This document shows positions 16,552-58,525 of a DNA stretch of 64,000 bases, one piece after another; positions within the stretch are counted from its first letter, which is position 1; each line of letters begins with the position of its first letter. Below the pieces are notes generated by a model. The model was not told where the DNA came from and made no database searches. It was given only the letters and a program-made list of their open reading frames with translations. Both the position numbers and the translations under genes were made by a program. Source of the stretch: Methanospirillum stamsii (GTDB taxonomy: Archaea > Halobacteriota > Methanomicrobia > Methanomicrobiales > Methanospirillaceae); contig NZ_QGMZ01000028.1 of assembly GCF_003173335.1 (NCBI RefSeq), positions 1 to 64,000 on the forward strand, written 5' to 3'.

Positions 16552-18852
16552 ATGTCTGGAATATTACAGAAAAAAGTAATCATCTGGCTCATTTTTTGCT
16601 TTGCCTGTCTCTCCTTTTCATCCTGTCTGGCAGATGATGCCATATCTTTCAAAAATGCCACCGGAATACGAAATTTTCTGCCTGACCCTCCCTATACAGA
16701 AGGAAGTATCCTGGTGCAGGCAGCAAATGGTCCGGACGGTATGGTCAGTTCCCTGTCTGATATCCATGCAGCAATCGGTGCATCGGTTGAGCGGGATTAT
16801 GGAACCGTTGGGATCCCCGGCTTATCTCTTGTCAAGCTTCCGGAAGGGATGCTGGTTCCTGATGCAATCCGTTATTATTCCGGTAATCCGGCTGTTTTGT
16901 ATGCAGAACCGGATTATTATGTTATAGCATTGAAAAATCCTGATGATCCGGAGTTCTGGCGGCAATGGGGACTTTCCAACACCGGATCCCTGTTTAAGGA
17001 GAATACCACTCCCGGAATACCCGGAGCAGACATCGGTGCCCTGGCTGGATGGGAAAAAGCCACAACCACGAACGGGACTATCATCGCCGTTCTTGACACC
17101 GGAGCAGATATTTATCATCCTGACCTAGTGGATAATATCTGGAGTTATTCAGGGTCCGGGACTCTTCTGCATGGAATAAATATCCTGGAAGATATGCCTG
17201 TTGAACCCTGGGATGATGACGGTCACGGAACTCATTGTGCCGGGATTATTGGTATGATTGGCAACAACGGACTCGGTGGGGCAGGGGTAGCCTGGAATAC
17301 CACCATCATGCCCATAAAAGTCCTGGATTACCGCGGGTCCGGAAAATTATCAGATCTTGCATTTGGTATGGCCTATGCAACACTGTACAATGCATCGGTC
17401 ATCAGTTGTTCGTTTGGAACAGAATACAGCCGGACAATGGAGGATATCATCCGTCAGTCCCCGGCACTTTTTGTCTGTTCAGCCGGAAACTATGTCGCAG
17501 ATTTGAACCGGATTTCCCAGTATCCGGCTTGTTATAACTTTAGCAACGTGATTGCCATTGCTGCAACAGATGCACAGGACAATCTGTCATGGTTCTCAAA
17601 TTATGGTAACCGGACGGTGCATGTCGGTGCTCCGGGCTCGGATATCTACAGCACTATTCCATCTGCATACTCCTACACCACAATCTTTGAAGATCCTGCA
17701 TTTTCAGAGCAGAACTTTACATTATCCGGTAACTGGATCCATGTTCCCGGTACTCTTCCTGGAGAACCCGTATCATTACGCGGAGTTCTTTCAGAACAAC
17801 CTGATAATTCTACCTTTGTCATTGAACTGAACAAGTCTGTTTATATTCCTGATGATATGGGTGAAATACCTAATCTGGTCTGGGATATAAAGGGGAATTT
17901 TAACGGATACCAGATAATCGAGTACTCCTTTGATGGTGAGCAATGGATTCCCCTTTGGGATTTTGATACTGAATTTAGGGAAGATGACTGGAGACAACTG
18001 TTTATTCCGCTCAATTCTGTATATCCGGGAACATCTGTCCGTTTCAGATATACTTATTCCCTGTTTGAAGGTGATATCAAATCTGATTTTTCCATCCGGG
18101 ATATCAGGATTGGATACCGTGGACTGGTAATAAAACCGGAATATACTTACATGGATGGGACATCAATGGCAGCCCCCATGGTCTCCGGTATCGCTGGTTT
18201 AATCAAGGGGAAAAAACCGGATCTTACCGCCGGAGAGATAAAACAGGTCATCATGGATACTGCTTTTCCCATTCCCTCATTACATGATAAGACTGTTACT
18301 GGTGGAAGGGTCAACCTGGAAGCTGCCCTGAAAGCATTGGATGAGCCTTCTACGATCCAGCTCTTTCCGGGCTGGAACCATGTATCAGTTCCACGGCAGC
18401 CTGCAGTGGGATATGAGACTGCACAGATATTTGCGGGTGTAAACTCATCCGGTCATTCAGTCCTCAAATATCTGAATGATACCGCAGGATACCAGACTCT
18501 CTCTATGAATGATTTGGTGGTTCCTCTTCAGGGGTACTGGATTTATTCTTCAGAGAAAACCGGGGTTCCGATTACGTTTAGTGAACCAATGACAATCCTT
18601 TCACGGGAGATTCCGGCAGGATGGTCATCGGTAGGGGGCTGGACAGAGGCTGACATATCAGCAAATGAGACCTTTCACACGTTGTCCGGTTGGTCATATG
18701 CGACCGGGTACAATGCCGGGCTTCAGCAGTATGAAGAACCGATTATCCGGGGAGGAACCAGCAACCAGAGTGATACAAGACCTGTCCTGCCATACGAAGG
18801 ATACTGGCTGTACTGTTCACAGAATGGGACATATCAGGCCGGGTTTGGATGA
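16552..18852 (+). CDS. Secreted S8 subtilase with inserted domain and C-terminal repeats
   Basis: A 766-aa protein with a signal peptide (about 1-27), an I9-like prodomain (GSILVQAANGPDG... to about 125), and a complete S8 core: D182 in AVLDTGAD, H225 in DGHGTHCAG, oxyanion N313 in CSAGN, and S538 in DGTSMAAPMVSG. About 180 residues (roughly 365-520) are inserted before the Ser motif and look like a jelly-roll domain. The tail holds two similar units starting GWNHVSVP and GWSSVGGW with GYWIY/GYWLY, probably surface-binding. A TATA-like TTTATATATTC lies about 28 nt before ATG (leaderless). Confidence 0.9.
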   Translation: MSGILQKKVIIWLIFCFACLSFSSCLADDAISFKNATGIRNFLPDPPYTEGSILVQAANGPDGMVSSLSDIHAAIGASVERDYGTVGIPGLSLVKLPEGMLVPDAIRYYSGNPAVLYAEPDYYVIALKNPDDPEFWRQWGLSNTGSLFKENTTPGIPGADIGALAGWEKATTTNGTIIAVLDTGADIYHPDLVDNIWSYSGSGTLLHGINILEDMPVEPWDDDGHGTHCAGIIGMIGNNGLGGAGVAWNTTIMPIKVLDYRGSGKLSDLAFGMAYATLYNASVISCSFGTEYSRTMEDIIRQSPALFVCSAGNYVADLNRISQYPACYNFSNVIAIAATDAQDNLSWFSNYGNRTVHVGAPGSDIYSTIPSAYSYTTIFEDPAFSEQNFTLSGNWIHVPGTLPGEPVSLRGVLSEQPDNSTFVIELNKSVYIPDDMGEIPNLVWDIKGNFNGYQIIEYSFDGEQWIPLWDFDTEFREDDWRQLFIPLNSVYPGTSVRFRYTYSLFEGDIKSDFSIRDIRIGYRGLVIKPEYTYMDGTSMAAPMVSGIAGLIKGKKPDLTAGEIKQVIMDTAFPIPSLHDKTVTGGRVNLEAALKALDEPSTIQLFPGWNHVSVPRQPAVGYETAQIFAGVNSSGHSVLKYLNDTAGYQTLSMNDLVVPLQGYWIYSSEKTGVPITFSEPMTILSREIPAGWSSVGGWTEADISANETFHTLSGWSYATGYNAGLQQYEEPIIRGGTSNQSDTRPVLPYEGYWLYCSQNGTYQAGFG

Positions 18853-31399: not shown

Positions 31400-33934
31400 T
31401 TATCCGGTGTACCGGTAATACATATGTTTTACCAGTTCACTGCATACAAAAAATGCCGCAACCAGACTGAAAATTATCCCGAGATGCATGGCAGACGGCG
31501 GGTAAAAATGAAATAATTTCTCTCCGATGACCGTATACGGGAGCAGGACGGTAGCTAAGGCTGCAACCGCTGTGAGAAGTATAACATACCCGGAAGGTCG
31601 TTCAGCCTGGTAACATGGCAGTTTTGTCCGTATCGAGAAGAGAAATACGAGCTCAGTGAGGATACTCCCCACAAACCAGTTTGTCTGCAGGATCTTGTCT
31701 CCCTCATGCATGAAAAATGCAAAAAACATGAGATCAAATACGGTCACAACTACCCCGAGCAATGTTGCGACCAGCATTATTTCCCGGACTTCATATTTTC
31801 TCGGTTTTTTGACTTCATTTTTATCAACCGTATCGGTAGCGATGGAGATCATTGGAAAATCTGACAGGAGGTTTACCAGAAGTATCTGAATCGGGAGCAT
31901 CGGCAGAAAAGAAATGAACATGGATCCGATTGCAATCGCGTAAAAATGACCGAAGTTAGATGCAAGTGTTGCCTTCAGATACTTAACACTATTTGCAAAC
32001 ACCCCTCTTCCGCTCTCAATTCCATCCATTATCACCTCCAGGTTCTTCTGAAGCAGGATGATATCAGCAGCTTCCCTTGCAATATCTGCTGCACTCTCAA
32101 CTACCATTGACACACCGGCCAGTTTGAGGGCCGGAGCATCATTGATTCCTTCCCCTAAAAATCCGACGGTAAATGAACGCTGAAGGGTCTTGATAATATC
32201 ATATTTCTGTTCCGGGGTGACCCGTGCGATGACCGCATGCCTGGTTATTGCCTCTGCCCGGTCGTTTTCAGGTAACTCCTGCAAAACAGAACCGGTAAGG
32301 ACCATCGATGGATCATCAAGTAACCCGATTTTTACCCCTACCGCTCCTGCAACCTCCGGACTGTCTCCGGTGATGATTTTAATCGCAACACCAAGTTCCC
32401 TGGCTTTCTCTACGGCATGATAAGTGGATGGTTTGATTGGATCGGCAAAGGCCATAACGCCAAGGAATTGTAGATCCTGTTCATCTTCAGGAATTATTGT
32501 TTCTTTTTCTCCCGGAAACGTCCGTTTTGCAATGGCAATCGTTCGCTCTCCTGCTTTTCCCTTATCAGAGATCCACTTCTCAATCCCCTCTTTTTCAGAA
32601 TTTAAAAGAGAAGATAAGCCGATGATTACCTCTGGTGCACCCCGGACGATCATGAATGTTTCTTTCTCGTTCCTGATGAGAACCGCATTTCTCCGCCGAA
32701 CCGGGTCAAACGGCAATTCCATCAGCCGCTTAGAACCATTGTCCGGTAAAACCTGCCAATCTGCAGCCTCCTTTTCTATTGCAATGTCAAACGGCTCTGT
32801 TTTTTCCAGCGTCTGTGCAACGGTCAGAGCAGCATATGAGAGGAGAGCTGGGTGTGCATCCGGAGAATAATCCGTCGCACTGAGGGAGTTTTCTGTCAGG
32901 GTTCCGGTCTTGTCAGAGCAGAGTACCTCAATACTTCCAATATCCTCAATTGCGGTGAGCCGTTTAACAATAACCTCATGTTTGGCAAGTTGCAGGGCAC
33001 CTCTTGAAAGAGAGACTGTTGTTACAACGGGAAGAGCTTCAGGAACGACACTTACCACAAGAGCGATACAAAATACGACCAGTTCGAAAACATCTGCATT
33101 TTCACCTTTAATTACCAGGTTTGCCAGGAAAATGAAGACCAGGGTTATCAAAATCATCCGTAAGATAAAACTGCTGAAACTGCTGATTCCTTTTGAAAAC
33201 TCACTCTCTTTTGTGGTTTCCACGGTCAGTTTTGCAATCCTGCCCATGGTCGTCCGCTCTCCTGTCTCAAGGACAAGAGCGGTTGCCTCACCTTCTACAA
33301 CTGATGTCCCGCTAAAGAGAAGATTATGGCTTTCATAGATATTTTTTGGAACAGAGGGGAGTATATCTGCATCTTTTAAGACCGGTACCGATTCACCGGT
33401 CAGGGTCGTCTCATTGACAATAAGATGGTTGGTATGTATAACCCGGAGATCAGCAGGTATGGCATCTCCGGTCACAAGACTGATGATATCTCCTTTTACC
33501 AGGTTTCGTGAATCGATTACCTGCCAGTTATTATCCCTTTTTACCCGGCTCCGGGGACTGATAAACTGCTGCAATGCCCGGAGTGACTGTTCTGATTTGT
33601 ATTCCTGGTAAAATCCAAGGGCAGCGTTGATGAAAACAAATCCGACAATGATTCCTGCATCGACATGCTCACCGATGGCATACACGATGACCGCAGCAAC
33701 CAAAAGCAGGTAAATAAAAGGGGATTTAAACTGCCGGATTGCAATCTCCCACCAGTGTACCTGAGTAGCAGATATCTCGTTTAATCCATCTCTCTGGAGA
33801 GATGCACCGGCATTTTCCTGGGAAAGGCCTTCTGGTAATGAGGTGTGAAATAGTTCCTGAAGATTTTCTAATGAAAGTGATGCATATTGGAATATCCCGA
33901 TTTTATGTTCTTCTTCACTGCCATGAGTCGTCAT
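31400..33934 (-). CDS. P-type ATPase, Mg2+-transporter-like (P3B/MgtA-related)
   Basis: 844 aa from the ATG at 33934, preferred over the longer frame (34006) because GGAGAG sits just before it. Features: TGES in the actuator domain, phosphorylation D341 in CSDKTGTLT, and a hinge that reads GEGINDAPAL with E595 where most P-type ATPases have Asp. The membrane segment NFGHFYAIAIGSMFISFLPM followed by LPIQILLVNLLSDFPM matches MgtA-type pumps. Predicted to move Mg2+ or another cation using ATP. Ten helices. The GEGIND variant recurs, as far as I recall, in a bacterial/archaeal subgroup. Confidence 0.8.
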   Translation of the reverse strand: MTTHGSEEEHKIGIFQYASLSLENLQELFHTSLPEGLSQENAGASLQRDGLNEISATQVHWWEIAIRQFKSPFIYLLLVAAVIVYAIGEHVDAGIIVGFVFINAALGFYQEYKSEQSLRALQQFISPRSRVKRDNNWQVIDSRNLVKGDIISLVTGDAIPADLRVIHTNHLIVNETTLTGESVPVLKDADILPSVPKNIYESHNLLFSGTSVVEGEATALVLETGERTTMGRIAKLTVETTKESEFSKGISSFSSFILRMILITLVFIFLANLVIKGENADVFELVVFCIALVVSVVPEALPVVTTVSLSRGALQLAKHEVIVKRLTAIEDIGSIEVLCSDKTGTLTENSLSATDYSPDAHPALLSYAALTVAQTLEKTEPFDIAIEKEAADWQVLPDNGSKRLMELPFDPVRRRNAVLIRNEKETFMIVRGAPEVIIGLSSLLNSEKEGIEKWISDKGKAGERTIAIAKRTFPGEKETIIPEDEQDLQFLGVMAFADPIKPSTYHAVEKARELGVAIKIITGDSPEVAGAVGVKIGLLDDPSMVLTGSVLQELPENDRAEAITRHAVIARVTPEQKYDIIKTLQRSFTVGFLGEGINDAPALKLAGVSMVVESAADIAREAADIILLQKNLEVIMDGIESGRGVFANSVKYLKATLASNFGHFYAIAIGSMFISFLPMLPIQILLVNLLSDFPMISIATDTVDKNEVKKPRKYEVREIMLVATLLGVVVTVFDLMFFAFFMHEGDKILQTNWFVGSILTELVFLFSIRTKLPCYQAERPSGYVILLTAVAALATVLLPYTVIGEKLFHFYPPSAMHLGIIFSLVAAFFVCSELVKHMYYRYTG

Positions 33935-34197
33935 GTTCTCTCCGGGTCCATTGAAAGACAGGTATCCCGCCGGATGCCAGAATAGATCCCTGTTTTTTCC
34001 TCTCATCCGGACAGAGAACTATCCTGCTTTCTCAATATGCTGAGAATGATATTAATGATTGTGAGGAGAATCACCGCCACATACCGGATGATCAGAGGGA
34101 CAGGATAGGGAAGGTGTCACGTTCTGCTCATGGTATATGAGCTCAAAAATCCCTGAAGCTGATAGCAAAGAGGAATGGTATGGAGTAGGAGAAAAGA

Positions 34198-35079: not shown

Positions 35080-35484
35080 GTATGTCTGATTTGGGTTTTA
35101 TGCATTTTCAGAGGCAGGGGGGCTGAAAAAAGATATTTTTCCTTTGATTTATTCGAAAAATAATTTGATATCCAAAGAATATTCTGCATGCTTTTTCTGG
35201 TGTACAGAGGTATGGTTTGCTGCCCGTAATTATGTATGGGTTATCAGAATTTTTGGACACATGAGATAATTATTATTTTGTCATGATCACCAGGAGAAGA
35301 ATCTGCCTTCTTTTAGATCTCCTTTGGGAATTATTAACTCATGTCTTGGGGATTACTATTTCCATGTGCACATTCATCATAATGCCGGATTTACGATTCC
35401 TTTTTGCCTGAAAAGCAGGTATTTAGAATACAAATTCCATAAGGATTTGATTACCGGTGAACGGAATTAAATCCGGCTACTAGG
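35080..35484. other. Intergenic region at the left edge of the trypco2/protease island
   Basis: Contains the EamA promoter near its left end. An open stretch of about 60 codons near 35286-35470 lacks a convincing start or homology. No repeat or tRNA seen. The island boundary is marked by the yjbQ fragment that follows. Confidence 0.3.
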
Positions 35485-35637
35485 GCCGGCCTTACCATCA
35501 ATGAGAATGCTGATCCGGATGTAAAACGGGATATCCTTGTCGGTCTTGCCCGCCAGGTTTCGTCATCCGGAGATTATCTGCATGCTGAAGGGAATTCCGA
35601 TACTCATATCAAGGCATCGCTGCTGGCATCACTATGA
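35485..35637 (+). pseudogene. Truncated duplicate of yjbQ
   Basis: 138 bp (35485-35622) align without gaps to 38032-38169 inside the intact yjbQ gene, with 12 mismatches counted by eye (about 91% identity), eight of them silent. The copy lacks the first 45 and last 40 or so codons and ends in TGA 15 bp later. Silent bias means the copy evolved as a gene before being truncated. With the intact gene it brackets the 35641-37400 cassette. Confidence 0.85.
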
Positions 35638-35640
35638 TTA

Positions 35641-36918
35641 TCACATTCCCTGTTGATCTGATTTTGTCATATCAACAATCATATTTTCGCCATCAATAAT
35701 TCCGTTGCCGATTTCAACAATCGTTCCCCTCTTTTTCGGAATGATGTAGGAAATATTACTCAATACCGTTGTTCCATGAGGCCCGTCACCTTCCAAAACC
35801 CGTGCAACAACTAATCTATGGCTTGCCCCGATATAGTTTTTAATTGTTTCAAGCTTTTGTGTATTTGGTAAAGAACCCAGAGCCTGGTTACATTCCTGCA
35901 TATGGTCACAATTTCTGCTCTCATCCAATACATCCGGAAATAATATTCTTGTTAATCTCTCCGGAGTAATACAATCCAGAAGTTCATCGATGCATTGTAC
36001 ATCGATGAATCCTGCACCCATTGAAAGGACATTTTCCTCCGGTATTGGTTTTGCAGACATTTCAAGGCATTTTTTTATGATATCCGGTGATAATGGATGA
36101 ATGGTATCGATCCCGCACCTTCTCAAAAAAAGGGAGTATTCGGTATACCACTTCTGTTCTTCATCAGTTCGAAATATCCGGATGCTGGAATATTCCTTTT
36201 TCATGTAGATCTTCTCGAGATTATCATGAAACGCCAGATTTGAATCATATCCGGTATCCAGAGCTCCAATGACCGGTGACGTTATGATCGAACTCCATTT
36301 TTCCTTCTTATTGAGATCACACAGTTCAAAAATTACAAAACTCAGATAGGATTTAAGGTACATTGCCAATCCGGTCACTTTTGGTGCAGCAAAGCTGGTT
36401 GAAGGGGGATAGATATCAGAATTCGATGTCCCATCAGTTACGACTGTAACCCCTGGACCATGGTCATACCCCCTGCTGGATGTATTCAGTATTTTTCTGT
36501 TCTGATCTGTTGCACCAACGGAAATTATTGTGGGATGTGTTGCAAGTGCCTGAAGAGTTCCTCCTCCCCCAAGTCCGTTGTTGCCTGCTGCAAATATTAC
36601 CGGTATATTCATCAGATAAAGCATTAATAAGGCTAGATTTATTGGATCATCATCCGGAATTTCTCTTGGTCCAAGACTAATATTAACGATATCCGGATGC
36701 TGCTCAAGTATCCAATCTAATCCCTTGAGTAAATTAACATATGAATGTGGTTTTTCTGAAAATTTGTGAGTATATGGGATTTCCAATCCAGAATATGAGT
36801 TCGGACATATGATATAGGGTAAACTTTTACCGACAAATATTGCAGGATCAGCAAAAACGGGTGTGAAAGTCTGGGGACTATATTGAAAGACTGAAAACTT
36901 TCCCTCTTGAGAACTCAT
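35641..36918 (-). CDS. Subtilisin-like (S8) protein lacking the Asp/His half of the triad
   Basis: A 425-aa protein without signal peptide or membrane segment. The second half of an S8 fold is clear: DIVNISLGPRE, oxyanion N113 in FAAGNNGLGGGG, and S175 in PPSTSFAAPKVTGLAMYL, followed by GAGFIDVQCIDELLD near 315-330, the usual end of S8 domains. The DTG and HGTH motifs are absent; the frame begins only about 70 residues before VNISLG. It is therefore a pseudo-protease, a protease with another catalytic arrangement, or an N-terminally shortened gene. The C-terminal 100 residues are unknown. Its ATG overlaps the stop of the trypco2-like gene by 4 nt. Confidence 0.7.
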   Translation of the reverse strand: MSSQEGKFSVFQYSPQTFTPVFADPAIFVGKSLPYIICPNSYSGLEIPYTHKFSEKPHSYVNLLKGLDWILEQHPDIVNISLGPREIPDDDPINLALLMLYLMNIPVIFAAGNNGLGGGGTLQALATHPTIISVGATDQNRKILNTSSRGYDHGPGVTVVTDGTSNSDIYPPSTSFAAPKVTGLAMYLKSYLSFVIFELCDLNKKEKWSSIITSPVIGALDTGYDSNLAFHDNLEKIYMKKEYSSIRIFRTDEEQKWYTEYSLFLRRCGIDTIHPLSPDIIKKCLEMSAKPIPEENVLSMGAGFIDVQCIDELLDCITPERLTRILFPDVLDESRNCDHMQECNQALGSLPNTQKLETIKNYIGASHRLVVARVLEGDGPHGTTVLSNISYIIPKKRGTIVEIGNGIIDGENMIVDMTKSDQQGM

Positions 36919-37400
36919 ACACTTTTTAATGTGAGAACAATCTTGTGTGAATATGCAGTACTTCCTCCCGCTCCAAGAATCATGGAAATTTCTCCCTCTT
37001 TGGTTATCTGAAACTGAAGAGTAATTACCGCATTCTCAAGTTTGAATTTTGGTTCCTGTAATTCTGCTTCATGAATGGTTTTCTTTATGAGTGCTACCGC
37101 TTCTGCTAGTTGTGATGGAATATCCCTGGATCCCATGAGGGTGACTTCATCTTTATCAGGTTTGAGAGAGATTAAAATGGTCTGAATATCCTGTTCTTTC
37201 ACTTCTCCTGATATGCTTACATTTAATGGCTTGAACTCAAGTTTTCCATTTGCGGATTTCTCTAAAACATTGTTGATTTCAAGATCGATTTTTTCCACAT
37301 CCAACCCTGATCCAGTGACTGAATATTGAATTGCACGTTTGATATCCCCTATGACAGATGTTAATTCATCAGATCCCATCGTGATGCCTTCACTCTTCAT
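36915..37400 (-). CDS. Tandem trypco2-like protein (trypsin-co-occurring domain)
   Basis: 161 aa, two similar halves. Residues about 92-161 (QLAEAVALIKKTIHEAELQE, then FKLENAVITLQFQITKEGEI, ending HKIVLTLKSV) fit the trypco2 pattern of an N-terminal helix followed by beta strands with a final K.TLTP-like strand. Residues about 12-80 (LTSVIGDIKRAIQYSVTGSG, then LEFKPLNVSISGEV, ending TILISLKP) are a second, diverged copy. Trypco2 domains are known as partners of trypsin-like proteases in conflict-type gene clusters. A GAAGG before M8 (37379) makes that an alternative start. ATGA overlap with the protease gene. Confidence 0.65.
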   Translation of the reverse strand: MKSEGITMGSDELTSVIGDIKRAIQYSVTGSGLDVEKIDLEINNVLEKSANGKLEFKPLNVSISGEVKEQDIQTILISLKPDKDEVTLMGSRDIPSQLAEAVALIKKTIHEAELQEPKFKLENAVITLQFQITKEGEISMILGAGGSTAYSHKIVLTLKSV

Positions 37401-37896: not shown

Positions 37897-38298
37897 ATGA
37901 AATGGATAAGGATACAGGTTAAAACGAATTCGAGAACAGAACTCATAGATATTACACATCGTATTTCAGAGGAAGTTACCAGATCCGGGATACAAAACGG
38001 AATCTGCTCTGTTTTTATGCAGCATACAACCGCCGGCCTTACTATCAATGAAAATGCTGATCCGGATGTAAAACGGGATATCCTTGTCGGTCTCGCCCGT
38101 CTGGTTCCGGCATCCGGAGATTATCTGCATGCCGAGGGAAATTCCGATGCTCATATCAAGGCATCACTGATGGGATTTTCTCTTCCTGTTCCGGTCATTG
38201 ATGGCCGGCTGGCTCTTGGAACCTGGCAGGGAATGTACTTTTGCGAGTTTGATGGTCCCCGGGACCGGCATGTCCTTGTTGGAGTAAGTGGTGAGTAA
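37897..38298 (+). CDS. yjbQ: YjbQ family protein (UPF0047, secondary thiamine-phosphate synthase-like)
   Basis: A 133-aa protein of full family length. Signature parts: VFMQHTTAGLTINENADPDV, GDYLHAEGNSDAHIKASLMG, and LGTWQGMYFCEFDGPRDRHV. The conserved His/Asn/Asp residues form the active-site region that gives weak thiamine-phosphate synthase activity in bacterial homologues; the true cellular role is unsettled. A truncated, 91%-identical copy lies 2.5 kb to the left at 35485. Intact and probably functional. Confidence 0.9.
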   Translation: MKWIRIQVKTNSRTELIDITHRISEEVTRSGIQNGICSVFMQHTTAGLTINENADPDVKRDILVGLARLVPASGDYLHAEGNSDAHIKASLMGFSLPVPVIDGRLALGTWQGMYFCEFDGPRDRHVLVGVSGE

Positions 38299-38848: not shown

Positions 38849-39064
38849 ATGCGATACACCGTAATGATTAGAGAAGATGAGGAGGGTGGTTTTTTAGCTA
38901 GTTGTCCAGATCTTCCCGGTTGTCATAGTGAGGGAGATACTCTGGAAGATGCAATATCAAATATTAAAGAAGCCATTCTCTGTTATCTTGAAAGTCTGAA
39001 AAAAGATAATCTTCCTATTCCCATGCCTGCATTATTCGAAACCATTGATATTGCATCAGTTTGA
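38849..39064 (+). CDS. hicB: HicB family antitoxin
   Basis: A 71-aa protein starting MRYTVMIREDEEGGFLASCP and continuing DLPGCHSEGDTLEDAISNI, the typical partial RNase-H fold of HicB. It lacks a separate C-terminal DNA-binding domain, as in the short HicB type. It precedes the toxin, with its TGA overlapping the toxin start (TTGA). It should neutralise HicA and autoregulate the operon. Both genes look intact, unlike most toxin loci in this window. Confidence 0.9.
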   Translation: MRYTVMIREDEEGGFLASCPDLPGCHSEGDTLEDAISNIKEAILCYLESLKKDNLPIPMPALFETIDIASV

Positions 39065-39306
39065 TTATAAGTGCGAAATTACCTGTTGTGTCAGGAGAGC
39101 AAATAATCAAAGTTTTGTGTAAAAATGGGTATTTTATCCATCACCAACGCGGAAGTCATGTCACATTAAAAAAAAATGGCCCTCCAGTAACCAGAGTTGT
39201 AGTTCCATTACATGACCCGGTACGGAAAGGAACATTAAAATCAATATTGTTTGATGCAGGAATAACTACTGAAGAATTTGTTCAATTATTACATAATCAT
39301 ATTTAA
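39061..39306 (+). CDS. hicA: HicA family mRNA interferase toxin
   Basis: An 81-aa dsRBD-like protein: KLPVVSGEQIIKVLCKNGY, then HHQRGSHVTLKK with catalytic H33, and VVPLHDPVRKGTLKSIL. A TTG start at 39061 is chosen because no ATG or GTG precedes the conserved LPVVSG segment, and it overlaps the hicB stop by 4 nt. Rare-start translation may keep toxin levels low. HicA cleaves mRNA in the absence of HicB. Confidence 0.85.
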   Translation: MIISAKLPVVSGEQIIKVLCKNGYFIHHQRGSHVTLKKNGPPVTRVVVPLHDPVRKGTLKSILFDAGITTEEFVQLLHNHI

Positions 39307-40556: not shown

Positions 40557-41753
40557 TTAATCGATTTTATAATTATATCTTATTATCTCGTGAACTATCA
40601 TTTCTTCGTCATTGTAAAGGATAGTAAGTAATTGTAACCCAATATCAATAGTTGCCCATATGTATTCACCGATATATTCTACACCAACGTGGAATGATTC
40701 ATTTAATACACTTACATTTCCATTACTGTCAACAATTCTTATGAAATGAATCTTACCTGGAAGGAGGGGAATATTTTTCAAATCCAACTTAAATCCACGT
40801 TTCAAAATTCGTTTTTGGGGTAAGCATTGAAGATCTTTTTTCTCTAATTTCCAGGCATTAAATCGGTTCTGACTATCACAAAACACTTTAAATTATTTCC
40901 GAATGTCTGTTAGACTTGAAAATTCCTCTCTTCTCCAAAATAGCCGATCAAAATTCTTGTTGAACTCTTCTATTGTGCCATTCATCCATGGTTTCGCTGG
41001 AGCAATGAATATCACTTCAATCCCAACATACAAACACAATTTAACAAACCGGCTGATAGATCTTGGATGAATAAAATCACCTGCAAAAGACATTCCATTG
41101 TCTACCTGGATGTATTTGGGTAGTTGATGTGATTTCCAATATCCTAGTAAAAACTCCATCACATTATCCATGCTTTTACCAGAGTATTGTTTTCCTGCGA
41201 CCTGACGACCAATGACATCTTTTAGGTGGAGAGAATTCACGGGTCCACAGCCTCTGATATATCTAGGACCGACGAAATCAATCTGGTGTATTTCATCGAT
41301 ATATTCAGGTTTGATGAGAGAATATCTCCCTTTAGATTTCACTCGTTTGTAGCGCTCTTTCTTATTTACACGTAATTTATGGCGCTTAATTATACGTTTA
41401 ATGGTAGAGAGACAAGGAATTGATTCTGGATCATAATTGAGTTCTTCCATGTGAAATTGAATGGCTTCAGCCCCTACAAATCCATATTGAGCGTATTCGT
41501 CATCTCCTTCCATGAGTGACTCCCTGATTCTAATGACAACATTTACTAACTGATCATCTAATTTGTTAGGGATTGTTTTAGGTCTTTTAGAGAGGTCTTT
41601 ATACCAATCATTTGATCCAGAGGAATATCTTTTCACCCATTTATTCAACCATGATTTTGACTTTCCAAGAATTCTGCAGATATTAACTTGCTTCTCTCCT
41701 TCAATGAAGCGTTTTATGGCTTCTTTTCTCATATCCTCTTCGGTATCATCCAA
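40557..41753 (-). pseudogene. IS481-family transposase with an in-frame TAA
   Basis: The reading frame from 41753 encodes an N-terminal HTH (VNICRILGKSKSWLNKWVKR), a Mu/integrase linker, and an rve DDE core (IHQIDFVGPRYIRGCGPVNS, YIQVDNGMSFAGDF, MNGTIEEFNKNFDRLFW). After ...SSLTDIRK a TAA at 40890-40892 interrupts, and the same frame resumes at once with FKVFCDSQNRFNAWKLEKK and the C-terminal beta domain to 40557. D, D and E of the DDE triad lie before the stop, but the C-terminal domain is lost unless read through. A CAA or CAT to TAA change is likely. Confidence 0.85.
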
Positions 41754-41962: not shown

Positions 41963-42412
41963 TTAATTCTCTATAAAATCTGAAATAACAATTACCTGAA
42001 ACGGTTGATTATTTTTCAACCGTTTATCATTTGTAATAAAACAAGAACAGTTATGGATTTGTGCAGTCGCGAGATGGATGGCATCTGGAAGGTGAATTGC
42101 ATTTGATGATGCTCGAATCCTGGCAGCCTCCACAAGGATTTGGCGATCAATAGTGGCGAGAGAAAGAAAATCTGATGATTGCATAATTTCTTCATACATC
42201 ATCTGTAAATTCTCGTTATTGTCCATGAGAGGTTTTATGAGGACCTCTGCAAGGGTTAGTTCACTTGTTACTGCTGTGTAAGTGCCATTATCAATTAGGC
42301 CGAAAAGTGAGGTAAGAATCGATTCATATTCGGGGTAACCTTCTCAAGCGTATATGAAAATATTTGTATCAAGATAAATCCTGGGGCCTGTTATAGTCTC
42401 GATTATTCCCAT
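41963..42412 (-). pseudogene. PIN-domain toxin (VapC-like) interrupted by TGA
   Basis: The full frame begins at ATG 42412 (MGIIETITGPRIYLDTNIFIYA), reaches a TGA at codon 23 (42344-42346), and continues with EGYPEYESILTSLFG and the PIN body to 41963, including HLPDAIHLATA and CFITNDKRL. Its ATG lies inside the antitoxin gene (10-nt overlap). An internal ATG at 42226 leaves an 87-aa C-terminal piece without the first catalytic Asp. The toxin should be dead. Confidence 0.8.
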
Positions 42413-42959: not shown

Positions 42960-43757
42960 TTTTCAGAAGTCTGGCCAAAAATACCACTTGATATGAAATA
43001 AAATTTAATGCAATAGAAAACTCTTTGGACGATTCTGAATCCATTTTGCACAAAAATTGAAGGTCCGTTTACATACCCTAACCGGCCATCAGAAACATTT
43101 ACTGATCCAAACACACTGGTTTTTTTCTTGTTGGTTCTTGTTTCACAACAGGACTTTTAATATCATTAGGAATCCACATTTTGCATCGAGTGCCATTTTG
43201 TTGAAAATGGCATTCATCTGAACTCCAAATTTCATATTTTCCGCGTTGGAATTTCCGTTTTAGTTTTTTTTAAAACTCTCCTGTTTTTTTGGATCTGACT
43301 TTGAACTGATTGGTCGGGGTTTCACCTGACGATACTCTAATTTATGGAGCAGTCTTTGACATTGGCGAACACTAATCATTATTCCATAGGTTTTTTCAAT
43401 GTGATAACTAAGCAGTTTCCCATCCCAGAGGTTTTGTTCATAATCAAGTAATATTGGGTCTTTTCTTAAAATTTGCTTGATTTCTTCTAATTGTTGATCT
43501 GATAGAGAAGAAGGCCTTCCCGTCCTTTGTTCATCTCTTAAACCTTGAAAACTGCCCTCATTAAATTGATTTACCCAATTTTCTATGGTTTTTACCGTAT
43601 GACCTAAAATTTTTGCCGTTTCTAAACAAGAATATCCCTTTGAAACCAGTAATACTCCATGTAAGCGATGATTATAACGCGATTCGTCATTTGTCATAAT
43701 TTCTGATTGTATTGTGGTGGCCATTGTTTCAGCATTTATCACTTTCAATCGCCGCAT
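42960..43757 (-). pseudogene. IS630-family transposase with two frame changes
   Basis: The frame from 43757 gives a 165-aa N-terminal half: HTH segments LVSKGYSCLETAKILGHTVK and TIENWVNQFNEGSFQGLRDE, RTGRPSSLSDQQLEEIKQIL. It stops right after an A8 run (43264-43271), and the -1 frame continues directly with KKLKRKFQRGKYEIWSSDEC, the first Asp region of the DDE core. A second shift at an A7 run is needed to read VFGSVNVSDGRLGYVNGPS. The first site is A AAA AAC, a classic -1 slippery heptamer. The rest of the DDE core is lost, so the element is dead. Confidence 0.7.
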
Positions 43758-48316: not shown

Positions 48317-48682
48317 TTATATTCCTGAGGGATATCTTTGAGAAATAAGATTATCTTTAACTCTTAAAAACTCTGGATAAATACCTGGAAGTAGTTCTGT
48401 TGCAGTTTTATAGACAATCTGAATATTCACCCCAAAATACTCATGGATCAGTTTATCTCTCATACCTGCCATTTCAGCCCAGGGAATTGATGGATATTTC
48501 ACCCGGATCTCCGGAGGGATTTTCTTTGCAGCTTCTCCCATTACTTCAAAAGCCCTTATTACTGCAAATTGAGTTTTTTTATCTTCTGAAAATTCAAAAT
48601 ATGACACATTTTCCGTGAAACTAAGAATCAGTTCAATCATATCACCAATGTCAGTCAGGTAATCCCGGATATCACGGATCAT
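48317..48682 (-). CDS. HepT-like (DUF86) ribonuclease toxin
   Basis: A 121-aa all-helical HEPN protein with the R-x4-H-x-Y signature at R75-H80-Y82 (MRDKLIHEYFG). In MntA/HepT systems the toxin cleaves RNA and is silenced by AMP added to the Tyr by MntA. The start overlaps the MntA gene by 4 nt (ATGA-like), so both are co-translated. Appears intact. Confidence 0.85.
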   Translation of the reverse strand: MIRDIRDYLTDIGDMIELILSFTENVSYFEFSEDKKTQFAVIRAFEVMGEAAKKIPPEIRVKYPSIPWAEMAGMRDKLIHEYFGVNIQIVYKTATELLPGIYPEFLRVKDNLISQRYPSGI

Positions 48683-48996
48683 GCATAAACCACTTCAGAT
48701 AAGATGTATTTTCTGATGTACGGTTTTAATGAGTCTTTTAAAACCAAATCCACTTTTTTATTAAATATTTCCGTCAGGTAATGTTCAAGCCGGATAAACG
48801 TAAATAAATCCGGAATTTGGGAAAAAGAAACCAAAATGTCAATGTCACTGGAATCTGTTGCATCACCCCGGACAATAGAGCCAAATAGTCCGATCTCCTG
48901 AACATGATATTCACTCTCCAATTTTCCATGGAGCCCTTTTAATTCAGATAATATCTCTTCCCGAGATGAGTATTCTTTTTGATGTGGACTAATCAT
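48679..48996 (-). CDS. MntA-like minimal nucleotidyltransferase antitoxin
   Basis: A 105-aa MNT-fold protein. Motif GLFGSIVRGDATDSSDIDIL contains the G39-S40 and D51/D53 catalytic residues, of the GSx10DxD type. It would AMPylate HepT. It is first in a two-gene operon with HepT and lies 30-odd bp upstream of a dead copy of the same pair. Intact. Confidence 0.85.
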   Translation of the reverse strand: MISPHQKEYSSREEILSELKGLHGKLESEYHVQEIGLFGSIVRGDATDSSDIDILVSFSQIPDLFTFIRLEHYLTEIFNKKVDLVLKDSLKPYIRKYILSEVVYA

Positions 48997-49084: not shown

Positions 49085-51814
49085 CTACCCTTCTCTCTCC
49101 ATAACCCGGAGAGTGTATTTAAACACCTCCCCGATTACAAAGATAATTACCCCCGGAACCAGGCAGATAAGCCATTGATCCCCGGATAACGAGACGGTTC
49201 CAAAAATATGCTGGAACAATCTCGTTTCCGTAATCATCAGCGTCCCCAGAATAACCCAGAGATACGAATACACCAGTCTGACATTGGTAAAGGTTGATTT
49301 CTGGAACGAAGTATCATACGGAAACCGGAGATTTAACGCAACAAAAATATTCATGAGAGAGACTGCTACAACTGCCATCGTCTGTCCGATTTGCGAAGAC
49401 CCATACGTAGTCTGGCCGATATGATAGATATAGAGAGTCGAAGCGGCCATAAAAAGACCGATAACAAATAGCCGGACATACATCTTCATCGTAATGATGG
49501 CCTCTCCATATCTCCGGGGTTTTCTCGACATAATGCCGGGAGATGGAAAATCAAGCCCGAATGCAATACCAATCGGTGCAACAATCAGCATATGAATCCA
49601 TAACACCTGACCCGGAGTAAACAGAGCGGTTCCGGCGATTGCAAACATGGATGATCCAAGAAACGCCAGGATAAACTGGAAAAGATTTGCAATCTGAATC
49701 CGAAGGAACTTCTGCAGATTATCATACACCTTCCGGCCTTCCTTGATTGCCGACACAATTGTTGCGAAATTATCATCGGTCAGGATCATCTTGGCTGCAC
49801 CTTTTGCAACATCGGTCCCGGTAACCCCCATTGCAATTCCAATATCTGCAGCCTTTAACGCCGGAGCATCATTTACGCCGTCTCCTGTCATTGCAACAAT
49901 ATTCCCTTGTTTTTTCAGGACATTGACAAGTTTAACCTTATGCTCCGGAGCTACCCGTGCAATAACGCCGATATCATCTATCTGTGCTGCTGCTTCTTCA
50001 TCACTCATCGCAGCAAACTCTGCCCCGGTGATAGCACGGCCTTCGATTCCAAGTTCCCGTCCGATAGTCCCTGCAGTCACGGCATGATCTCCGGTTATCA
50101 TCCGGACCCGGATTCCTGCCTGCTTTGCCATTGCAATCGCTTCTTTTGCCTCAGCACGGGGAGGATCTACCTCACCCACAAAGGCAGTCATCATAAGATC
50201 CTTCATCAGAGGCATCAGGTCAGATTTCGGATCAAAAGTCACCGGATCAAATTCTGCCTGTGCAAATGCCAGGACCCGAAGACCTTCACGTGCAATACGT
50301 TCATTTTCGGCGAGAAAATCCTTACGGTCCTCTTCGGTGAAAGGTTTTGCCATTCCATCCGGCAGTAAAAAAGAAGAAGATAATGCAAGAATTATGTCCG
50401 GAGCACCCTTAATATATGCACGAATCACCGGTTTTCCGACAGAACTTTTCATCTCATGAAAAGTAGCCATGAATTTGTAATCCGAATCAAACGGAATACT
50501 GGCAATCCGGGGATTATTCTTCCGGAATTCAGCGACACTAATACCGCCTTTTTCTGCAAGAACATACAGTGCTCCTTCGGTTGGATCGCCAATAACCTGC
50601 CCGTCTTTGATGTCGGTATCGATACAAAGGGCACAGGGAAAGAGGACATGATCAAGATTTTCCTCCTTTCCTCCTTCGGTTCTCTGGATAATGCCCTGAA
50701 AACTATACCCCTCTCCGGATACGATATACCGATGCTTAACCGTTGAAATGACCCGGACCGTCATCTGGTTCATCGTGAGGGTTCCGGTCTTATCTGAGTT
50801 TATTGCAGAGGTGGAACCTAACGTCTCCACTGCTGGAAGGCTTTTTATGATGGCATTTTTCTGAGCCATTGCAACGGTTCCCATTGCTAGAATTGAGGTG
50901 ACAACTGCCGGAAGAGCATCCGGAATAGAACCGATTGCAAGAGAAACACCGATATTAAAAAGTTTGTCAAACGACTCTCCCTGAGATAGCCCGATAACGA
51001 CAATACTTAAAAAGGCAAAACAGGCCATACCGATAATAAAAAGTGTAACCCGGTCTATCTGCAGAGTAAGCGGGGTTTTCTCCGCTTTTTGTTCCGAAAG
51101 CATGGTTGCAATATGACCCACTTCGGATCTCATGCCGGTTTCTGTGACCAGTATCTCCCCATGACCACGGGTAACATTGGTATTCATAAACGCCATGTTA
51201 ATCCGGTCACCAAGGGGAAGGTCTTGTCTTGGAATTACGTCGCTGTTCTTCTCAACCGCCGTGCTTTCACCGGTTAATGCAGACTCTTCAATCTGGAGGT
51301 TTGCTGCGATGATTATTCTGCCATCAGCCGGAACACGGTCTCCGGCATCGACAATGACAATATCTCCGGGAACAATGCTTTCTGCTTCGACCTGGATAAT
51401 GCTGCCATCTCTTCTCACCTTTGCAACCACCTTCATCATTTTGTTGAGAGTGGCGATGCTGGCAGCAGCTTTTGCTTCCTGTCTGAAGCCAAGGGAGGCA
51501 TTGAAAAGAGTAAGGAGGATCAACAGGAAAAACGTGTGATATTCTTTAATGACCAGGCTTGCAATTGCGGCAATGACCAGAACAATCTGCATGTACGATT
51601 TGTATTCGGCTAAAAACCGGACCCAGGCAGGTCTTTCTTTCTCTTCTTCCAGGATGTTTTTCCCGAACTTTTCAATCCGGGATGGAATTTCAGAAACAGA
51701 CAGGCCTTTTTCTCCGGATACTTCTAAGATTTTCGCCGTATCTTCAGAGGTTAAAGAATACCATGCAGGTTTAGCAGAAGAAGTAATTTTTTCCTTGTTG
51801 ATTTCATCAGACAT
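49085..51814 (-). CDS. P2-type cation-transporting ATPase
   Basis: A 909-aa P-type ATPase with an N-terminal cation-ATPase domain, TGES in the actuator, D341 in NSDKTGTLTMNQ, KGAPD in the N domain, and MTGDGVNDAPALK. Helix 4 reads SIPDALPAVVTSIL, with PDALP rather than the PEGLP of Ca2+ pumps, so the ion (Ca2+, Na+ or other) cannot be named. Ten helices. Monocistronic. Confidence 0.85.
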   Translation of the reverse strand: MSDEINKEKITSSAKPAWYSLTSEDTAKILEVSGEKGLSVSEIPSRIEKFGKNILEEEKERPAWVRFLAEYKSYMQIVLVIAAIASLVIKEYHTFFLLILLTLFNASLGFRQEAKAAASIATLNKMMKVVAKVRRDGSIIQVEAESIVPGDIVIVDAGDRVPADGRIIIAANLQIEESALTGESTAVEKNSDVIPRQDLPLGDRINMAFMNTNVTRGHGEILVTETGMRSEVGHIATMLSEQKAEKTPLTLQIDRVTLFIIGMACFAFLSIVVIGLSQGESFDKLFNIGVSLAIGSIPDALPAVVTSILAMGTVAMAQKNAIIKSLPAVETLGSTSAINSDKTGTLTMNQMTVRVISTVKHRYIVSGEGYSFQGIIQRTEGGKEENLDHVLFPCALCIDTDIKDGQVIGDPTEGALYVLAEKGGISVAEFRKNNPRIASIPFDSDYKFMATFHEMKSSVGKPVIRAYIKGAPDIILALSSSFLLPDGMAKPFTEEDRKDFLAENERIAREGLRVLAFAQAEFDPVTFDPKSDLMPLMKDLMMTAFVGEVDPPRAEAKEAIAMAKQAGIRVRMITGDHAVTAGTIGRELGIEGRAITGAEFAAMSDEEAAAQIDDIGVIARVAPEHKVKLVNVLKKQGNIVAMTGDGVNDAPALKAADIGIAMGVTGTDVAKGAAKMILTDDNFATIVSAIKEGRKVYDNLQKFLRIQIANLFQFILAFLGSSMFAIAGTALFTPGQVLWIHMLIVAPIGIAFGLDFPSPGIMSRKPRRYGEAIITMKMYVRLFVIGLFMAASTLYIYHIGQTTYGSSQIGQTMAVVAVSLMNIFVALNLRFPYDTSFQKSTFTNVRLVYSYLWVILGTLMITETRLFQHIFGTVSLSGDQWLICLVPGVIIFVIGEVFKYTLRVMEREG

Positions 51815-55960: not shown

Positions 55961-58525
55961 ATGACACTCCCGGATATTGAGACCATACAAGGACTTTCCA
56001 GTAAACAGGTAGCAGACCGGATAAGGACATTTGGATATAACGAACTCCCGGAACAGAAGAAAGACGGTATTATTGACATACTTCTTGAGGTTTTCAGGGA
56101 ACCGATGTTTCTTCTCCTGGTAGCCAGTGGTATTATCTACTTTTTCCTTGGTGACATCACCGAAGCGGTCATGCTCATGAGCTTTGTGGTGGTCATCATC
56201 GGTATCACGGTATACCAGGAGCGAAAGACCGAACGGGCACTTGAAGCACTCCGGAATCTCTCAAGTCCCCGGGCACTTGTAATCAGGGATGGAAAGCAGA
56301 GACGAATCGCCGGACGGGAGGTTGTTCCGGGTGATATTCTCATCCTTTCAGAAGGGGACCGGGTTCCTGCCGACGGAATTCTCCTCTCATCAAACAATAT
56401 CACGATTGACGAATCACTCCTTACCGGTGAATCGGTCCCGGTTCGAAAGATTACCTGGACGACAGGTCTGCCCCCACAGACTCCGGGCGGAGATGATCAG
56501 CCATTCGCATACTCCGGAACCCTTGTTGTCCAGGGTCAGGCCCTTATAGAAGTTAAAACCACCGGATCCCTGACCGAAATGGGAAAGATAGGCATGGTTC
56601 TTAAGGAAGTCGGGCGGGAAGATACCAGGCTGAAAGTGGAGATCTCCTCGATGGTGAAGGTAATCGCAACATGCGGCCTCTTTTTGTGTCTTCTCATCGT
56701 TATCATCTATGGAATCGGTCGGGGAGACTGGATATCCGGACTTCTTGCAGGAATTACTCTTGCGATGGCTATCCTTCCGGAAGAGTTCCCGGTGGTTTTA
56801 ACGGTTTTTCTTGCACTTGGGGCATGGAGAATCTCACAAAAGCAGGTGCTGACCCGTCAGGTACCTGCAATTGAAACCCTGGGGTCTGCATCTGTTCTGT
56901 GCGTAGACAAGACCGGAACACTCACCCTCAATAAAATGACCGTGCAATCCTTTTTCGCAGATGATGAATTCTGTGAGCATGATGGCGCTGGTGAAAATTC
57001 AGTCCCTGATTCCTGTCATGAACTGTCCGAATACGCCATTCTTGCCTGTAAGAAAGATCCCTTTGATCCAATGGAAAAAGCACTCGTCCAGCTATCTCAG
57101 GGAGATTTTGGAAAAACAGAACATATACATAAAGATTGGAACCTCATCACCGAATATCCTCTCTCATCTGAACTCCTGGCGATGTCAAATGTCTGGCAGT
57201 CTCCGGACGGTCATGATTTTATTATTGCCGCCAAGGGAGCTCCGGAGGCGATTGCTGATCTCTGCCATTTTTCAGAGCCGGAACAGAGAAAACTGGCAGA
57301 ACAGATAGATATGATGGCATCACGGGGACTTCGGATTCTTGGAGTTGCAAAATCGTCATTTTCACATACGGAGCTCCCGAGCATCCAGCATGACTTCGTT
57401 TTTACGTTCCTTGGTCTTATCGGGTTTGCCGATCCGGTAAGACCGGGGATCTCTGAAGCGGTGAGCGAATGTTATGCAGCCGGTATCAGGATAATTATGA
57501 TAACCGGTGATTATCCACGAACAGCCCAGAATATTGCGAATCAGATAGGGCTTAAGCATGCACAGAGCCCGGTTACCGGAACTGACCTTATCGAGTTATC
57601 AGATGATGAGCTCAAAGACCGGCTCCGGACTGCTACGGTCTTTGCACGGGCCGTTCCTGAACAGAAACTGCGGATAGTCAAAGCACTGAAGGGAAATAAT
57701 GACGTTGTTGCCATGACCGGTGACGGGGTCAATGATGCACCGGCTCTGAAATGTGCAGATATCGGAATTGCCATGGGTGGGAGAGGCACCGATGTTGCCC
57801 GTGAAGCATCATCCCTCGTCCTTCTTGACGATAATTTCACTTCTATCGTCTCTGCGGTCAGACTTGGCCGGAGAATCTATGACAACCTGAAGAAGGCAAT
57901 GGCCTATATCTTCTCAATACACATCCCAATCGCCGGAATGTCTCTCATTCCCGTCCTCTTTGATATGCCGCTCATCCTCATGCCCATGCATATTGTATTC
58001 CTTGAACTCATCATAGACCCGACCTGTTCCATTGTCTTTGAGGCTGAAAAGGAAGAACATGATATCATGAACAGGCCGCCCCGGTCTGCGGATGAACGGC
58101 TCTTTACACCGAAAACTCTCTTTCTCAGCCTGATGCAGGGATTTGTTGTCCTGGGCGTTGTGCTCCTCGTATATCTTCATTCCCTGATGAGCGGGCTTGG
58201 TGAGGCAGAAGTGCGTACCATGACTTTTATCACCATTGTGCTCGCAAACCTGCTTCTCATCCTGACCAACCGGTCCTGGTCAGAGACGATAATCTCCACG
58301 ATCCGGACACCAAATAAGGCAATGCAATGGGTATTTGCCGGAACGATAAGCAGTCTTGTCCTGATCCTGATAATTCCGGCACTCCGGGATCTCTTCAGGT
58401 TTTCATTGATTCCGGCGGAAGGAATAATCACCTGTGTGTTAGCAGCTGGCTTGAGTGTACTCTGGTTTGAGGCCTGGAAACTCTGGAACCTCAGAAAAAG
58501 TCCTGATTTCACGGATATTACATGA
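55961..58525 (+). CDS. P2-type cation-transporting ATPase with PEEFP helix-4 motif
   Basis: 854 aa: N-terminal cation-ATPase domain (GLSSKQVADRIRTFGYNELP), TGES, D316 in CVDKTGTLTLNK, KGAPE, MTGDGVNDAPALK, and ten helices. Helix 4 reads LAMAILPEEFPVVLTVFLAL, with EEF in place of the EGL of Ca2+ pumps; such pumps are a distinct bacterial/archaeal group of uncertain ion. It converges on and overlaps the KUP gene by 8 nt at their 3' ends, so transcripts would be partly antisense. Confidence 0.85.
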   Translation: MTLPDIETIQGLSSKQVADRIRTFGYNELPEQKKDGIIDILLEVFREPMFLLLVASGIIYFFLGDITEAVMLMSFVVVIIGITVYQERKTERALEALRNLSSPRALVIRDGKQRRIAGREVVPGDILILSEGDRVPADGILLSSNNITIDESLLTGESVPVRKITWTTGLPPQTPGGDDQPFAYSGTLVVQGQALIEVKTTGSLTEMGKIGMVLKEVGREDTRLKVEISSMVKVIATCGLFLCLLIVIIYGIGRGDWISGLLAGITLAMAILPEEFPVVLTVFLALGAWRISQKQVLTRQVPAIETLGSASVLCVDKTGTLTLNKMTVQSFFADDEFCEHDGAGENSVPDSCHELSEYAILACKKDPFDPMEKALVQLSQGDFGKTEHIHKDWNLITEYPLSSELLAMSNVWQSPDGHDFIIAAKGAPEAIADLCHFSEPEQRKLAEQIDMMASRGLRILGVAKSSFSHTELPSIQHDFVFTFLGLIGFADPVRPGISEAVSECYAAGIRIIMITGDYPRTAQNIANQIGLKHAQSPVTGTDLIELSDDELKDRLRTATVFARAVPEQKLRIVKALKGNNDVVAMTGDGVNDAPALKCADIGIAMGGRGTDVAREASSLVLLDDNFTSIVSAVRLGRRIYDNLKKAMAYIFSIHIPIAGMSLIPVLFDMPLILMPMHIVFLELIIDPTCSIVFEAEKEEHDIMNRPPRSADERLFTPKTLFLSLMQGFVVLGVVLLVYLHSLMSGLGEAEVRTMTFITIVLANLLLILTNRSWSETIISTIRTPNKAMQWVFAGTISSLVLILIIPALRDLFRFSLIPAEGIITCVLAAGLSVLWFEAWKLWNLRKSPDFTDIT

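Follow-up and report, generated by a model that had tools for sequence, protein, structure and literature searches.

We identified a two-gene pair on the minus strand of the analysed window (the whole stretch of 64,000 nucleotides from Methanospirillum stamsii), which encodes a small Trypco2-Pepco protein and a subtilase-fold (family S8) protein whose Asp-type motif stands on the C-terminal side of the catalytic Ser position. The domain composition of the pair, its conservation and gene order, the relocated Asp motif and the lack of signal or membrane segments are direct observations. Judging from sequence, the pair appears to be real, small, conserved and unusual, and its larger gene would encode a rare rearranged subtilase, possibly inactive, that is present in a few methane-producing archaea. 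Homologous pairs were found in a second genome of the genus (G010) and in a genome of another genus of the same family (G672).

Domain composition of the small protein

The two open reading frames overlap by 4 nt (ATGA), both on the minus strand, as had been proposed in an earlier sequence-only reading of this DNA. The two-gene operon and its conserved order suggest that the products act together. The small gene comprises the following features:

36915..37400, minus strand: Trypco2-Pepco gene, 161 aa (open reading frame and Pfam profile match)
37158..37358, minus strand: Trypco2 domain, aa 15-81 (PF19631)
36924..37127, minus strand: Pepco domain, aa 92-159 (PF24393), which appears to be a diverged copy of the N-terminal half

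The probable true start of the protein is the ATG at 37379, giving 154 aa, since the open reading frame of the G010 homologue begins at the equivalent ATG. The Pfam profile PF19631 matched the 161-aa protein confidently (E 1.5e-10, 41.6 bits, cut-off 24.2), which supports the Trypco2 similarity suspected earlier. The N-terminal half alone scored 29.9 bits against the same cut-off, which was passed by the homologues too, with the exception of L036, which was marginal. The profile PF24393 gave E 1.5e-5 and 25.9 bits with the whole protein (cut-off 27), and the C-terminal half alone reached 27.3 bits with Pepco (cut-off 27) compared to 14.1 bits with Trypco2; the Pepco scores of the relatives in G672 and in another archaeal genome, G401, were 27.6 and 33.7 bits. 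The two halves look homologous to each other, as indicated by hhalign comparison of profiles built over eight archaeal homologues (E 4.5e-6). Thus, of the two Trypco2-like repeats proposed earlier, the N-terminal one and the relationship between the halves were retained, but the C-terminal half scores better with Pepco than with Trypco2, and "tandem Trypco2" is therefore better put as a Trypco2 domain followed by a related Pepco domain. The same build was present in most other archaeal Trypco2 proteins that we found. The AlphaFold model of the protein had a mean pLDDT of 43.6, with a low-confidence helix-plus-strands arrangement seen twice.

To our knowledge, Trypco domains have been named from gene neighbourhoods only. 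In the literature searched, we found no paper that uses the name Pepco for the second domain. Trypco2 has been termed an adapter (PMC10907252).

The subtilase fold and its relocated Asp motif

The features of the large gene, all on the minus strand, are:

35641..36918, minus strand: rearranged subtilase-fold gene, 425 aa (open reading frame, PF00082)
36349..36762, minus strand: S8 core, Ser half, aa 53-190 (PF00082, 4.1e-13)
36580..36582, minus strand: Asn113, the oxyanion-hole Asn within AAGN, unchanged in all three homologues as well as in regular S8 proteins
36394..36396, minus strand: Ser175, at the nucleophile position within TSFAAP, likewise unchanged in all three homologues and regular S8 proteins
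36226..36276, minus strand: Asp-type motif PVIGALDTGYDSNLAFH, aa 215-231, with Asp221 at 36256-36258, within an insert of 80 aa
35977..36090, minus strand: S8-domain tail, aa 277-314 (aligned with viral S8 tails by MAFFT and structurally with BPN' as far as residue 275)

The match to PF00082 (49.7 bits, cut-off 21.8) covered only profile positions 89-255 of 288, in agreement with the assignment of the protein to the Ser half of a subtilisin fold, and PDB subtilisins matched the protein at 1e-10. In the predicted model, aa 25-315 superimposed on BPN' residues 40-275 with Z of about 16, and PatA matched equally well. The cyanobactin maturation subtilases PatA and PagA (TIGR03895; PDB 4h6v, 4h6w) are thus among the best structural matches and also match the Ser half in sequence; however, their domain has the conventional Asp-His-Ser order, and the window protein scored 29.5 bits against the TIGR03895 cut-off of 421. 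No prodomain, signal peptide or transmembrane segment was recognisable in the 425-aa protein. A conventional subtilase of 766 aa with a fervidolysin-type prodomain is encoded elsewhere in the window (16552-18852), and the whole genome contains 15 S8 profile matches.

The N-terminal segment that carries Asp and His in subtilases was absent from the S8 protein of the window, as had been noticed before, and also from those of G010 and G672. The Asp motif itself, however, is not missing but relocated to aa 215-231: the subtilase pattern P-x-IG-x-x-DTG-x-[DN] stands C-terminal to the Ser, so that the 425-aa protein does not contain Asp, His and Ser in the canonical S8 order and Ser precedes Asp. 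The motif was kept in all three homologues, including the 41%-identical protein of G672, whose insert has otherwise diverged yet reads PRIGIADTGVNPDLLPH. The Asp-type segment matched the S8 Asp profile in hhalign with P 1.3e-5, and none of 2000 joint column shuffles equalled the combined score of the three sequences with a profile built from 43 Asp motifs of regular S8 proteins. The pattern was found neither in the post-Ser tails of regular S8 proteins (0/18) nor in pieces of other proteins (0/129). Its position after the Ser, its conservation and its score beyond shuffles indicate that the chain has been rearranged rather than having simply lost its Asp. On these sequence comparisons we take the segment as a real Asp-type segment, and Asp221 may return to the active site in the folded protein.

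The Ser half is separated by the insert of about 80 aa from a recognisable S8 tail. The single unknown C-terminal domain that had been proposed for this region was not upheld, as aa 277-314 resemble the end of an S8 domain and the Asp motif lies in the insert before it. A simple circular permutation was ruled out for the same reason: past the Asp motif the chain still resembles a normal S8 C-terminal end, which indicates that the Asp segment was inserted into the chain and does not represent a displaced terminus.

A single His, His231, ten residues past Asp221, was shared by all three S8 proteins. Ordinary Asp motifs (DTGID..HPDL) have a non-catalytic His at a similar place.

The candidate His motif and the question of activity

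One further element near the C-terminus was considered as a putative source of the catalytic His:

35764..35787, minus strand: His-type candidate DGPHGTTV, aa 378-385, with His381, in one of the two longest invariant runs between the window and G010 proteins

With Ser175, Asp221 and His381 brought together by folding, the protein could be an active, topologically rearranged subtilase with the triad order Ser-Asp-His, for which Trypco2-Pepco would serve as an activator, chaperone or inhibitor. In favour of this possibility, the two longest invariant runs between the window and G010 proteins are aa 217-238, with DTG, and aa 367-388, with GPHGTTV; the latter keeps its residues across 10 synonymous changes, and the Asp motif is significant. 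In addition, Asp/His fragments taken from 23 viral S8 proteins were aligned by MAFFT with Asp221 and His381. This placement is weak and was rejected as proof, because it was reproduced in 5/300 shuffles of the C-terminal part and in 55/300 full shuffles. The HGT-like motif, found at the extreme C-terminus of two of the three homologues, did not by itself match the S8 His profile significantly (P 0.06), and it is missing from the G672 protein, whose chain stops just before the equivalent place. A frameshift hiding it was ruled out by reading the three frames downstream of the G672 stop, none of which contained HGT; the G672 protein thus has no standard triad. His381 was accordingly not accepted as a proven catalytic residue. 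The AlphaFold model was usable for the S8 core, but the Asp and His segments were built with pLDDT below 50, and the low-confidence model has a helix at 216-222 over the Asp segment, where a strand would be expected. Taken together, we consider an active rearranged enzyme doubtful, but the main rival of our preferred model.

Recurrence of the pair among archaea

The pair was present in 2/12 genomes of the genus, those of the window (3.74 Mb, 99.9% complete) and of G010, in line with the accessory location that had been proposed. The G010 pair shares 88% (Trypco2-Pepco) and 78% (S8) identity with that of the window; the G672 pair, found with the C-terminal part of the S8 protein as a query, shares 48% and 41%. 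Three Methanomicrobiales genomes of two genera thus have the pair with an unchanged gene order, Trypco2-Pepco followed by S8, which answers the earlier question of its recurrence. The C-terminal part of the S8 protein was found in 3/232 genomes of the order and in 0/238 genomes of the class to which G406, a Methanosarcina acetivorans-type genome, belongs. Trypco2 is rare in the phylum (7/393 genomes, G406, G331 and G401 among them). No relatives of the pair or of the S8 protein, apart from generic S8 matches, were found among viral contigs, plasmids and phages.

These numbers bear on the idea that the S8 gene is a decaying subtilase remnant with a hitch-hiking neighbour. The truncated N-terminus and the adjoining remnant of a yjbQ gene (see below) would agree with decay, but the intact open reading frames, an architecture shared by three genomes whose S8 proteins are 41-78% identical and the conserved functional motifs contradict it, making this explanation very improbable.

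In G406 (L034:7100-9071) and G331 (L035:7238-9268), a gene for an S8-TPR protein lies upstream of Trypco2-Pepco. This protein kept the Asp and His, ends before the Ser and has TPRs added. It thus keeps the half of the subtilase that is complementary to the half kept in the window. Like the window pair, these pairs join Trypco2-Pepco to an S8 fold without a canonical full triad; they differ by the absence of the Ser half, by the TPRs and by the reversed order, with the protease-like gene first. In G401 (L032:7268-11336), the genes for a TPR protein, a CHAT protease and Trypco2-Pepco are consecutive, and the CHAT protein has a weak match to the PADLOC BovA model.

Genomic neighbourhood

No further operon members accompany the window pair, as had been noted from the sequence. 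On one side its neighbours are EamA and P-type ATPase genes, an arrangement shared with G010; on the other side lies a YjbQ gene, and HicBA is also found there. The G672 pair is flanked by genes for a sensor, an exonuclease and a SpoIIE-type protein. The EamA genes of G004 and G008 are surrounded by different genes, and the pair is absent there. Next to the window pair we noticed a second, incomplete yjbQ copy:

35478..35629, plus strand: yjbQ (UPF0047) remnant downstream of the pair, 152 nt, 89% identical to the intact copy

The intact yjbQ gene is at 37897-38298, and the remnant is 78% identical to the yjbQ of G010. The two yjbQ copies bracket the pair in the same orientation and may record the way in which it was acquired or exchanged. 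Three cation-transporting P-type ATPase-like genes, 28-31% identical in tblastn, are located within 27 kb (31400-34006, 49085-51814 and 55961-58525).

Several toxin-antitoxin genes are found near the pair, namely HicB-HicA (38849-39306), a PIN-domain protein (41963-42226) and a HepT-nucleotidyltransferase (HEPN-MNT) pair (48317-48996). Transposase or integrase fragments lie downstream of the toxin-antitoxin genes (40893-41753 and 43260-43757), in a stretch rich in mobile elements. The pair could itself be of a toxin-antitoxin-like kind, in which the first gene product would hold a harmful intracellular protease and its loss would free the protease. The small first gene, the 4-nt overlap, the two-gene cassette, the accessory spot and the nearby toxin-antitoxin modules would fit such an arrangement. 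The triad, however, is incomplete, the gene order is reversed in G406 and G331, and mobile or plasmid copies were absent from the plasmids, viral contigs and phages searched; we regard this explanation as improbable.

Alternatively, the pair may be a Trypco-peptidase module with an effector function in anti-phage defence or biological conflict. The Trypco2 domain was defined from its occurrence beside trypsin-like peptidases in the ternary conflict systems that include VMAP (Kaur et al. 2020, PMC7159879), and in G401 Trypco2-Pepco comes after the TPR and CHAT protease genes. As in the VMAP/MoxR-vWA systems, Trypco2 is here part of a small separate protein beside a peptidase-fold gene. The differences are that the partner is an S8 fold and not a trypsin (no trypsin-like peptidase gene is next to Trypco2 in the window, G010 or G672), that Pepco is added and that the genes form an archaeal two-gene cassette. 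No MoxR, vWA, VMAP or other named defence gene was seen adjoining any copy of the pair, STAND genes were likewise absent beside it in the window, G010, G672 and G406, and components of the VMAP/MoxR-vWA ternary system were not found in the neighbourhood of the pair in the window or in G672. PADLOC gave only generic subtilase matches or unrelated ones. The anti-phage system IetAS, in which an IetS-type subtilase adjoins the AAA ATPase IetA, was not detected, as no AAA ATPase gene is directly beside the pair and the S8 protein matched only the generic PADLOC "subtilase" model weakly. The defence role suggested by the sequence-only reading thus found no backing in the neighbourhood, and a conflict effector module appears at least as improbable as a toxin-antitoxin-like pair.

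Proposed role of the pair

Our preferred, still tentative model is a cytosolic two-gene module, in which a Trypco2-Pepco adaptor and a degenerate or rearranged S8 (pseudo)protease form a ligand-binding complex. It is favoured because a canonical triad was missing from every S8 partner of Trypco2-Pepco that we found. The earlier idea of a Trypco2 protein holding a (pseudo)protease is plausible and is thus retained. The first product would be a peptidase-associated adaptor made of two related alpha+beta domains, and the second a subtilisin fold without its N-terminal Asp/His segment, with the Asp strand (DTG) re-inserted past the serine helix. The two proteins may form a stable complex. With its intact cleft, oxyanion Asn and Ser and a non-standard or incomplete triad, the S8 fold would bind a peptide or protein ligand, and it might signal or hold this ligand instead of degrading it, proteolysis being lost or strongly restricted. 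Trypco2-Pepco would stabilise the S8 protein and couple it to a further partner, and the role of the pair could be regulatory or conflict-related.

On the sequence evidence, we lean towards a pseudoenzyme rather than an active rearranged enzyme. Two observations count against this preference: selection has maintained the Ser, the oxyanion Asn and also the Asp, more than a pure pseudoenzyme would require, and the invariant HGT-like motif of the Methanospirillum-type proteins could complete a triad. Subtilisin-like pseudoproteases with regulatory roles are known, for example CspC and CspA of Clostridioides difficile, of which CspC senses or holds a ligand in spores (PMC6199464). They resemble the protein described here in having an S8 fold without a full triad that serves in regulation or ligand sensing; however, they have the conventional chain order, act in spore germination and have no Trypco2 partner.

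We found no description of a rearranged subtilase in the literature searched. If the protein is an active Ser-Asp-His enzyme controlled by its Trypco2-Pepco partner, the Asp strand would lie between the Ser helix and the C-terminal helices, with the His helix at the end of the chain, and this chain order would be new for family S8, as far as that literature shows. Our results suggest that the Asp strand of a subtilase can change its place in the chain without being lost. They also suggest that Trypco2-Pepco proteins tend to adjoin S8 folds whose triad is incomplete or scrambled, which speaks more for a role in binding or signalling than for bulk proteolysis. The pair represents a minimal two-gene version of a Trypco system without the larger conflict machinery, and could thus be tested with two purified proteins.
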